Assembly (NCBI GenBank): GCA_021604005.1
Contig: BQIV01000021.1
Span: 1 to 64,000 of the forward strand
Direction of reading: 5' to 3'
DNA length: 64,000 bases
From: Nitrospirales bacterium
GTDB taxonomy: Bacteria > Nitrospirota > Nitrospiria > Nitrospirales > UBA8639
The notes beneath the pieces were generated by a model. The model worked only from the letters and a program-made list of their open reading frames with translations, was not told the DNA's origin and did not search any database. This document shows positions 27,570 through 29,782 of this stretch, piece by piece. Position numbers and translations under genes: made by a program. The stretch's first letter is position 1. Every line of letters begins with the position of its first letter.

Positions 27570-27937
27570 ATCATGCGTGAAGGCCCTACTTCGATGAAGC
27601 ACGTAATACATGCCGAAGAACATGGCCTGCAATTTTCTTTGACAGATATTCTCTGCGATTTTATAATTTTGTCATATCTTTTACTTACGGCTCATTCGCT
27701 AATCACTGACAGGTCTATCTATCACAACCCACAAAGAACTCCGTCAGGCACCGGCACGCACGCGCATGACTCGGCATGAGCAGCTGCGAAGATGGTCTCA
27801 TAAACCGACGAGGCGAATTATCATCAGTCGCACAGGACACCCAGGGAATGACTGCCGTCCCACTGCGTTGCAGATGAGCCGCCCCCAAGATGATCTCTAT
27901 GCAACGGCAATGACTATTCGAACATGATGGAGACTCC
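27570..27937. other. Intergenic stretch
   Basis: No supported gene. Short frames overlap without ribosome-binding sites. It presumably contains the dapF-like promoter near its right end. Confidence 0.4.
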
Positions 27938-28807
27938 ATGAACAACCAATTTTTTAAAGGGCATGGGCTAGGCAATGACTATATTGCCCTTGATCCTTCG
28001 AGCCTCACCTTCAAACTCACACCCCGTATCATTCGAACGATTTGTGACCGAAATTGGGGAATCGGCAGTGATGGAATCTTAGCCCTGCATCCTACAAAAA
28101 AAGCCGACTTTGGATTGCGCATTTATAACCCTGACGGCTCTGAAGCGGAAAAGTCTGGAAATGGATTGCGAATTTTTGGGTGTTACCTCTATGCCACGCG
28201 AAAAACCCGAAAACGGAAATTTAGCGTACAGACCAAAGGTGGACTCGTACAGGTTCATCTGGGCGTGAATGGAAATGGGTATGTCGATGAAGCCACCGTT
28301 GAGATGGGACGGGCCTCATTTCAACCCATTGCGCTCCCCTGCTCGCTCCGCGTCCCCGAACTCATCCAACAACCCGTCAAAGCGGCGGGACAATCGCTAC
28401 GATTTATGGGAGTCAGCGTCGGTAATCCCCACTGTATTGTCTTTAAAGAAAAAGGTGAAGCGTGGACACGTGAAGACTTGCTGGAAATTGGACCTGAACT
28501 CGAAACCCATACGATCTTTCCAAAACGCACGAACGTCCAACTGGCCGTCCCAATAGGACCAAAATCCATCTCAATCCTCATTTGGGAACGGGGTGCTGGG
28601 GAAACACAAGCCTCAGGATCATCGGCTTGTGCTGCCGCCAGTGCCGCCATCCGCCTAGGGCTTGTGAAAAGCCCCGTCACCGTCAAGGCTCCAGGCGGTA
28701 ACCTCGAAGTGGCCATTGACCCTCAATATAACATCACCATGAAAGGGCCGGTGGCCGAAGTCGCGAGAGGAGAATTCAGTACCCCATTCATACACCATTT
28801 CCGGTAA
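27938..28807 (+). CDS. DapF-like epimerase lacking both catalytic cysteines
   Basis: A 289-residue protein with the pseudo-symmetric DapF fold: KGHGLGNDYIALDP at the N terminus, EKSGNGLRIFGCYL (71-84), VGNPHCIVF and GAGETQASGSSACAAA (219-234). Canonical diaminopimelate epimerase uses two cysteines, one in NGxRC and one in ACGxGA. Here these positions are Ile79 and Ser226. All other family landmarks are intact, so it folds as DapF but should not use the two-thiol racemisation mechanism. It may be an isomerase with another chemistry or act on another substrate; a canonical dapF may exist elsewhere. A strong terminator follows. Confidence 0.8.
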   Translation: MNNQFFKGHGLGNDYIALDPSSLTFKLTPRIIRTICDRNWGIGSDGILALHPTKKADFGLRIYNPDGSEAEKSGNGLRIFGCYLYATRKTRKRKFSVQTKGGLVQVHLGVNGNGYVDEATVEMGRASFQPIALPCSLRVPELIQQPVKAAGQSLRFMGVSVGNPHCIVFKEKGEAWTREDLLEIGPELETHTIFPKRTNVQLAVPIGPKSISILIWERGAGETQASGSSACAAASAAIRLGLVKSPVTVKAPGGNLEVAIDPQYNITMKGPVAEVARGEFSTPFIHHFR

Positions 28808-28811
28808 TCTC

Positions 28812-28850
28812 AAAAAAAAGAGCCCTCAGTCAATTGACTGAGGGCTCTTT
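28812..28850. terminator. Bidirectional intrinsic terminator
   Basis: A perfect 34-nt palindrome (28817-28850; arms AAAGAGCCCTCAGTCAA and its complement) lies between the convergent DapF-like and PEP-CTERM genes. On the minus strand it is followed by an 8-9 base U tract (complement of the A run 28812-28819), and on the plus strand by UUU. Confidence 0.9.
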
Positions 28851-28885: not shown

Positions 28886-29782
28886 TTAATGAAGAACCTG
28901 CTGAGTTTTTCTCCAGCGCCATGCAACGAGCCCCACGAACCCAGACCCAAACATCAACACAGTGGATGGTTCGGGCACTGCGGACACGGTCACACGTGCA
29001 ACGTGATAGCCTTCTTGCGTAAAATCCGCAGCTAGTCGGTCAATAGTAATATTCCCGCCAGGACCGGCAGTCGTTGCTCCTAAAATCAACGCTGTCCCTC
29101 CGGGATTGCCTATCGAGTTAATGAACCCTGGATGCAGTTGAACCACGCCACCTTCCACATCTCCCGTATTGGCTGCGAGTTGATTCAGAAATGCCGCCTC
29201 CATCTCGGTATTGACTTCCGTCCCGCCATCAAGCACCTGGCTCCCAAGCACAAGGAAATCGACTCCCACAAAGTTCCCACTTTCATCAAACAATTCATGC
29301 GCAAACGGATTCCCATTGGCAATGAATGCATCATTCGAAGGGATGACCATTGAGGCATAACTGAAATGTCCATTGCGTCCAGCCTGAATATCAAAGGCCT
29401 GACTCGTCACCCGTTCACCAGGATCAATCGGTCCCGGTATACCAGCCGGACCAATAACTGTTCCGTCGACACCGCCGTTACTTCCAGCCGAGCTATTGGC
29501 AAAATCAGTTGACAGCGATGCGGTGTTTCCATCCTCCACAAGCGATTCTAAACTTGAGGGCAAACCGGCAGCACCAATCGCGCGCCCACGGTCGTAGAGA
29601 TCGAAACTCCCATCATGAAATCCTACCCAGGTTGGAGTCAGAAAAATCCCATTATTCGGTGATAGATTTTGAATACTCACTTGAACGGGAACCGCCAGCG
29701 CAAGCGAAGAGGTAAAGAGCAGAGTACCAAATATGCCGATTGCGGCATGCATGACTGCAGGCTTAGACGTCAGAGTAACCAT
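28886..29782 (-). CDS. PEP-CTERM spondin-domain protein
   Basis: A 298-residue secreted protein. It has a signal peptide (MHAAIGIFGTLLFTSSLALA) and a spondin_N domain over about residues 32-265, with QNLSPNNGIFLTPTWVGFHDG, then FSYASMVIPSNDAFIANGNP as landmarks. The C-terminal sorting signal VPEPSTVLMFGSGFVGLVAW plus RWRK is a standard PEP-CTERM motif, which directs processing by an exosortase during export to the cell surface or matrix. No exosortase gene is in the window. AAGGAGGG lies 9 bases before the ATG. Confidence 0.93.
   Translation of the reverse strand: MVTLTSKPAVMHAAIGIFGTLLFTSSLALAVPVQVSIQNLSPNNGIFLTPTWVGFHDGSFDLYDRGRAIGAAGLPSSLESLVEDGNTASLSTDFANSSAGSNGGVDGTVIGPAGIPGPIDPGERVTSQAFDIQAGRNGHFSYASMVIPSNDAFIANGNPFAHELFDESGNFVGVDFLVLGSQVLDGGTEVNTEMEAAFLNQLAANTGDVEGGVVQLHPGFINSIGNPGGTALILGATTAGPGGNITIDRLAADFTQEGYHVARVTVSAVPEPSTVLMFGSGFVGLVAWRWRKTQQVLH

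Follow-up and report, generated by a model that had tools for sequence, protein, structure and literature searches.

Probable thiol-free diaminopimelate epimerases: a sister clade of DapF with serine at both catalytic positions

A DapF-family gene and its surroundings

The locus described here carries a gene of the DapF (diaminopimelate epimerase) family and lies in a 64,000-nucleotide stretch of a Nitrospirales contig (BQIV01000021.1), the whole of which is referred to below as the window. DapF, an antibacterial target under study, is a textbook example of an epimerase that works with two thiols and no cofactor. The gene, its marker codons and its flanking elements are as follows:

27639..27667, plus strand: probable promoter, perfect sigma-70 consensus (TTGACA-17-TATAAT), 270 nt 5' of the ATG
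27929..27932, plus strand: GGAG, ribosome-binding-like, 5 bases 5' of the ATG
27938..28807, plus strand: Ser/Ser DapF-family gene, ATG to TAA, 289 aa plus stop
28151..28153, plus strand: Lys72 codon AAG, clade marker adjoining catalytic Ser73
28154..28156, plus strand: Ser73 codon TCT, site of the first catalytic Cys
28172..28174, plus strand: Ile79 codon ATT, aligned to the non-catalytic C of NGxRC
28613..28615, plus strand: Ser226 codon TCA, site of the second catalytic Cys
28622..28624, plus strand: Ser229 codon TCG, clade marker; canonical DapF has Gly there
28812..28850, no strand assigned: possible two-way terminator between convergent genes, a perfect palindrome of 28 nt (28820-28847) with A8 and T3 at its flanks

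An equally perfect sigma-70 site lies upstream in 5 of the 30 loci read in the host's family, the window's own included (L003, L005, L006, L007 and L023), a count in which one locus (L027) has no upstream sequence; shuffled controls yielded such a site in 3 of 600 under a looser rule allowing at most one mismatch. The palindrome was not counted by the terminator scan of the window, which accepts loops of 3-8 followed by five T, and an Rfam search of the window returned no family at the gathering threshold. The convergent neighbour (28886-29782, minus strand) codes for a PEP-CTERM protein with a spondin domain (NF038123).

Serine at both catalytic positions

The protein matches the PF01678 profile with 169.2 bits and the DapF equivalog profile TIGR00652 with 224.2 bits, against a cut-off of 114.65. 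Its residues were mapped by alignment to canonical DapFs in the Anabaena numbering of PMC12039745, which gives Cys75 and Cys224 as the catalytic cysteines; in this alignment every mapped Anabaena position shows the residue expected of it in a canonical DapF, that of Westiellopsis (L206). The catalytic positions of the window protein are occupied by Ser73 (in K-S-G-N-G) and Ser226 (in A-S-G-S-S), and neither carries Cys. This bears out the original prediction that the gene product lacks both catalytic cysteines and is thereby barred from the canonical two-cysteine mechanism. The same prediction had located the lost thiols at Ile79 and Ser226, taking the C of NGxRC for a catalytic thiol: the second of these sites stands, and the first is to be corrected to Ser73, as the Ile79 column, which corresponds to that C and holds Cys in 53 of the 54 Cys/Cys rows, is non-catalytic by the Anabaena numbering. 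The pair is thus Ser/Ser and not Ile/Ser, and with Ser at both catalytic positions we file the protein in a Ser/Ser sister clade and not with canonical DapF.

We then considered the remainder of the active site across an alignment of 176 different sequences derived from 208 reads (117 Ser/Ser, 54 Cys/Cys and 5 Ser/Cys). The DAP contacts given for the Anabaena enzyme (PMC12039745) are N13, N66, G76, N77, N164, N197, E215, R216, G225 and T226; their equivalents are identical in the window protein at N13, N64, G74, N75, N163, N199, E217, R218 and G227, with Gly74, Asn75 and Gly227 being backbone-contact positions, and T226 is replaced by Ser228. Across the 117 Ser/Ser rows these contact residues are invariant except for one gap at Asn13, and position 228 is Ser in 110 and Thr in 7. 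The Ser/Ser class was defined solely by Ser at the two catalytic sites, Lys72 and Ser229 forming no part of the definition; Lys72 is present in every one of its 117 rows and in none of the 54 Cys/Cys or 5 Ser/Cys rows, and Ser229 in 115 of the 117 and in none of the 59 other rows. The position of Anabaena Gly47 is Gly in 117 of 117 Ser/Ser rows; according to PMC12039745, the absent side chain at this position gives space to ordered water in the enzyme of Anabaena and in that of plants.

Predicted structure and comparison with characterized relatives

An AlphaFold2 model of the window protein (pLDDT 96.9, pTM 0.91) displays the canonical DapF fold of two pseudosymmetric halves, with Ser73 and Ser226 placed immediately before helices 74-86 and 227-239; the cysteines of DapF are likewise described at helix N-termini (PMC12039745). 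The top PDB matches of the model are DapFs (8qzy: Z 36.5, 1.8 A over 271 residues), and Cys occupies both sites in the five best of the profile alignments to 17 matched sequences. The model, these structural matches and the retained DAP-contact residues agree with the earlier claim that the fold is otherwise intact, and the same holds for the substrate site.

Canonical two-cysteine DapF (TIGR00652; PDB 8qzy, 9mro and 1gqz) shares with the window protein its profile, fold, DAP-contact residues and pathway position, whereas the window protein differs in having Ser/Ser, with Lys72 where the canonical enzymes have Met/Phe/Ile and Ser229 where they have Gly, and in belonging to a separate clade. 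In the C73S and C217S forms of H. influenzae DapF (PDB 2q9h and 2q9j), which have a similar fold, the same two positions are changed to Ser singly; these are engineered single mutants of a Cys/Cys enzyme, whereas the window protein stands for a natural double-Ser clade. The PhzF family has the DapF-like fold in common with the window protein (1xub, Z 25.4) and, like it, is not known to have the cysteine pair, but uses other catalytic residues (a catalytic glutamate) and substrates, and is not among the Pfam and NCBIfam matches listed for the window protein. The histidine racemases HisR/CntK and O-ureidoserine racemase also have a DapF-like fold (7vdy Z 34.5, 6jis Z 24.4, 9cr1 Z 23.3) but act on other substrates, and HisR has two catalytic Cys according to PMC11602996. 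Finally, the proline racemase superfamily has a related fold (4lb0 Z 23.5, 4k7g Z 24.1), and in its Ser/Cys and Ser/Thr enzymes, as described in PMC4113996, the first catalytic Cys is replaced by Ser as in the window protein; identity by structure is 13-15%, the substrates are of the proline type, and the second residue is Cys or Thr. Alongside this structural similarity, the superfamily does not appear among the Pfam and NCBIfam matches listed for the window protein at E 0.001. The literature searched, with most subscription papers outside its reach, held no description of a natural Ser/Ser DapF and gave nothing useful on the cell wall of Nitrospira.

Distribution and phylogeny of the Ser/Ser clade

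A match was found in 42 of 48 genomes of the host's family, with none in the other 6 (3 among the 33 better genomes), and all 30 loci read from these (L003-L032, including the window's own) have Ser at both sites, which argues that the serines are not a sequencing error. Across the phylum 225 of 245 genomes gave a match and the motif was read in part of them, two loci at which the motif patterns read nothing (L078 and L081) being left out of the counts. Of 13 genomes read in f2, a family of the same order, 8 are Ser/Ser and 5, belonging to genera g13, g16, g18 and g20, have Ser at the first and Cys at the second site; f19, a family of another class, is Ser/Ser in 7 of the 7 loci read, and the other families read are Cys/Cys, with one genome (G053, family f16) having one of each kind.

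A scan of genome contigs matched 548 relatives, and of the best 80 of these, 75 are Ser/Ser and the other 5 (L172, L192, L196, L197 and L203) are Cys/Cys; as the scan patterns favour the Ser form, the Ser/Ser prevalence is to be read as a lower bound. By record title, the Ser/Ser members of these best 80 span about a dozen phyla, namely Nitrospirota, Gemmatimonadota, Chloroflexota, Armatimonadota, Bacillota, FCPU426, Dictyoglomus, Methylomirabilota, Rokubacteria, Dadabacteria, Cyanobacteria, Bacteroidota and Aquificota, many of the records being MAGs in which binning errors are possible. Ser/Ser records that are not labelled as MAGs come from Sunxiuqinia dokdonensis, Tangfeifania diversioriginum, Apibacter mensalis, Maribellus sp. 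CM-23, Westiellopsis prolifica and Clostridium sp. LS.

For phylogenetic analysis the 176 sequences were thinned to 96 rows, in which the operonic group and L208 were flagged as long branches. The 54 Ser/Ser rows of this tree fall on one side of a single branch with support of 100/100. The active-site columns were considered as the source of this grouping and rejected: on removal of window residues 70-80 and 223-231 the Ser/Ser rows still occupy one side of a branch, with an SH-aLRT of 100. The only Ser/Cys row in the tree sits among operonic Cys/Cys DapFs, so that its first-site Ser has a separate origin and marks a second loss of a catalytic Cys.

The Ser/Cys DapFs of f2 (L064, L068, L073, L074 and L075) belong to the same fold family and are operonic, with the motif EFSGNGARC; their first Cys is likewise Ser, but they retain the second Cys and have Phe instead of Lys before the serine. 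At L088 and L096, the two loci examined for gene order, the gene is flanked by lysA and dapA. G053 has both an operonic DapF of the Cys/Cys type and an unlinked one of the Ser/Ser type (L106 and L107), and the latter is the deepest branch of the Ser/Ser clade.

Pathway context in the host and its order

The original prediction had pointed to a second, canonical dapF as something to be sought in the genome. A PF01678 profile search of the window genome (G000, rated 100% complete) found none: its only two matches are the two halves of the window gene, which is thus the sole DAP-epimerase-family protein found there. The absence of any other dapF was one of two observations that the prediction had named as marking the gene as the real epimerase, and it favours that reading.

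The window genome has an argG-argH-lysA-dapA-dapB cluster, with all five genes identified by profile, from which dapF is missing, and a genome of g11 (L089) has the same arrangement, likewise without dapF; four others have dapF between lysA and dapA (G107 and G185 of f2, G053 of f16 and G060 of f13). Seen locus by locus, the lysA-dapA gap is without dapF in the checked genomes with an unlinked Ser/Ser dapF (L087 and L089) and holds it in L088, L096, L097 and L099. The Ser/Ser dapF genes of Nitrospirales lie outside the lys cluster, with varying neighbours.

The product of DapL is LL-DAP and the substrate of LysA is meso-DAP, so that an organism with both needs an LL-DAP epimerase. Within the order, all 57 genomes score above the cut-off for LysA and 36 of 39 do so for DapL (TIGR03540), with 623 bits in the window genome, the MurE of which carries DNPR, the motif of meso-DAP-adding MurE. 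In this genome the window protein is the only LL-DAP epimerase candidate found. A bypass by meso-DAP dehydrogenase (Ddh) was considered and rejected, with none of the 57 genomes of the order above the Ddh cut-off; some Ddh match at E 0.01 or better occurs in 38 of the 57, that of the window genome amounting to 19.6 bits over about 40 positions. The Ddh matches of three f2 genomes (L118, L119 and L120) reach 109-129 bits, below the cut-off of 180.6. Two genomes, G010 and G116 (rated 95% and 99% complete), have LysA and no DapF match, pointing to draft gaps or another solution.

Co-occurrence and gene neighbourhoods beyond the order

Searches covered 31 of 32 genomes reached through Ser/Ser loci, that of L149 being left out, and in 27 of the 31, the completeness of which is not stated, the Ser/Ser protein is the only TIGR00652 match; the Ser/Ser state was read directly in 26 of these and via locus L181 in the other (G313), while for L233 the reading of the first site came from its source locus, L195. 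The 27 include Maribellus, Sunxiuqinia, Tangfeifania and Apibacter, none of which has Ddh above cut-off; in the whole set 26 lack it at that level and only G312 has it. LysA is above cut-off in 19 of the 27 and gives some match in 25 and none in 2. The remaining 4 of the 31 also have a canonical DapF; two belong to Bacillota, Clostridium sp. LS being one, and the other two are cyanobacteria. With G053, these make a separate function of the Ser/Ser protein possible, at least in those genomes.

Among 15 Bacteroidota Ser/Ser loci, with neighbours identified by BLAST and part of them also scanned by profile, 11 have dapL and/or lysA within about 1.4 kb. A divergent dapL is found in L144, L156, L159, L163, L171, L177, L179 and L195, and lysA lies downstream in L145, L155, L159, L162, L163 and L171 and upstream in L177 and L195; neither gene was found near L151, L153, L158 and L176, for the first two of which the upstream sequence extends to only about 1.6 kb and 2 kb, respectively. 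The profile TIGR03542 recovered DapL in all four loci tested (L144, L163, L179 and L195) with 613-638 bits, against a cut-off of 364.7. For LysA, TIGR01048 gave 298-379 bits in L163, L177 and L195, against a cut-off of 297.9, and 284 and 287 bits, slightly below it, in L145 and L162.

Proposed function, mechanism and competing explanations

Based on this genomic evidence we infer that the window protein is quite likely the organism's real DAP epimerase, with Ser73 and Ser226 as its acid/base pair. As the only such enzyme found here and in many other genomes, it probably does the same job as DapF by different chemistry, and is probably a thiol-free DAP epimerase of a Ser/Ser sister clade of DapF. 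The original prediction left the reaction open; this now appears less likely than it was made out to be, given a sole DapF, no Ddh above cut-off, the presence of DapL, LysA and MurE, and relatives that adjoin dapL or lysA. The wider proposition, that the clade is an ancient branch of DAP epimerases reaching about a dozen phyla by record title and using a thiol-free Ser/Ser proton relay tuned by the conserved Lys, we hold to be evenly poised.

In the scheme that we propose, DapL would make LL-DAP, which the window protein would convert to meso-DAP for use by LysA in lysine formation and by MurE in peptidoglycan formation. Ser73 and Ser226, at the N-termini of two helices, would act as an acid/base pair in the manner of the DapF cysteines, most likely through a 1,1-proton transfer with the two serines on opposite faces. 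For the DapF thiols, PMC12039745 invokes helix dipoles and water exclusion, and treats the removal of a proton of pKa ~29 by a thiolate of pKa ~8.5 as unusual; we posit that the same two effects may also tune the serines, aided by Lys72 and Ser229. Precedent for a serine at the first site comes from the proline racemase superfamily, a Ser/Cys member of which is a 4-hydroxyproline epimerase and a Ser/Thr cluster of which mixes epimerases with dehydratases (PMC4113996).

A related but unlikely alternative is that the protein is a DAP epimerase without a Ser/Ser two-base mechanism, in which proton movement falls to a single serine, to bound water or to a nearby residue, for example Lys72. Serine is described as a poor acid/base for a C-alpha proton (PMC8142540), and both the invariant Lys72 of the Ser/Ser clade and the Gly found throughout at the Anabaena Gly47 position, with its room for an ordered water, would suit such a mechanism; the exact placement of both serines at the cysteine positions, at what are predicted to be helix N-termini, speaks against it.

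We regard it as improbable, too, that the protein acts on DAP or a related amino acid through some other reaction, such as an elimination or a one-way inversion, with meso-DAP supplied by an unseen epimerase or route. In the proline racemase superfamily, the Ser/Thr cluster includes dehydratases alongside epimerases (PMC4113996, in which accessions differ between text and figure legend), and PMC8142540 describes Cys/Thr racemases and, in one related enzyme, a Cys-to-Thr change that accompanies dehydratase activity; the coexistence of a canonical DapF in G053 and in 4 of the 31 genomes would also fit. However, this explanation requires that many phyla have an enzyme that has escaped notice, the gene adjoins dapL and/or lysA in 11 of 15 Bacteroidota loci, and 26 of the 27 sole-DapF genomes have no Ddh above cut-off.

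That the gene is a decayed or inactive DapF, or its serines an error of sequencing or annotation, is highly improbable, and we reject sequencing error and pseudogene. The loss of both catalytic thiols and the near-inactivity of engineered Cys mutants of such enzymes (PMC8225329, PMC11602996) would favour such a reading, but the frame is open and both serines are present in all 30 family loci read, a single clade reaching about a dozen phyla by record title retains the contact residues, and in 27 of 31 genomes no DapF other than this one was found.

Several observations count against our main reading: the Ser/Ser dapF of Nitrospirales lies outside the lys cluster, 6 of 48 family genomes have no match, LysA is above cut-off in 19 of the 27 sole-DapF genomes, some genomes also have a canonical DapF, and mutants of two-cysteine enzymes are impaired. 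Cys mutants of PddB keep less than 0.1% of activity, and the same is stated for Cys-to-Ser Mt-DapF (PMC8225329); C67S and C209S forms of HisR are greatly reduced (PMC11602996), and C72A and C207A forms of Chlamydia DapF lost in vivo glutamate racemase function (PMC5885031). A clade in which both catalytic residues, Lys72 and Ser229 have changed together is not equivalent to a point mutant. For the window protein we retain, as our inference, LL-DAP epimerisation with proton carriage by both serines and tuning by Lys72 and Ser229.

Implications

If this reading is correct, a natural, widespread and apparently indispensable Ser/Ser enzyme would show the thiols to be dispensable and provide a ready comparison system for studies of mechanism, and an annotated DapF need not be Cys/Cys. 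Thiol-free chemistry would also be expected to escape disulfide or peroxide inactivation as well as thiol-directed DapF inhibitors, the latter being predicted to spare Ser/Ser bacteria. DapF of C. glutamicum is described as inactivated by peroxide via a disulfide between its two cysteines (PMC5296763), an inactivation to which meso-DAP synthesis by Ser/Ser enzymes is predicted to be resistant; we speculate that this escape is a possible selective reason for Ser/Ser.

As a minor observation on gene content, one Ser/Ser locus (L066; G235:C22:829700-832300) has two different Ser/Ser dapF genes in tandem.
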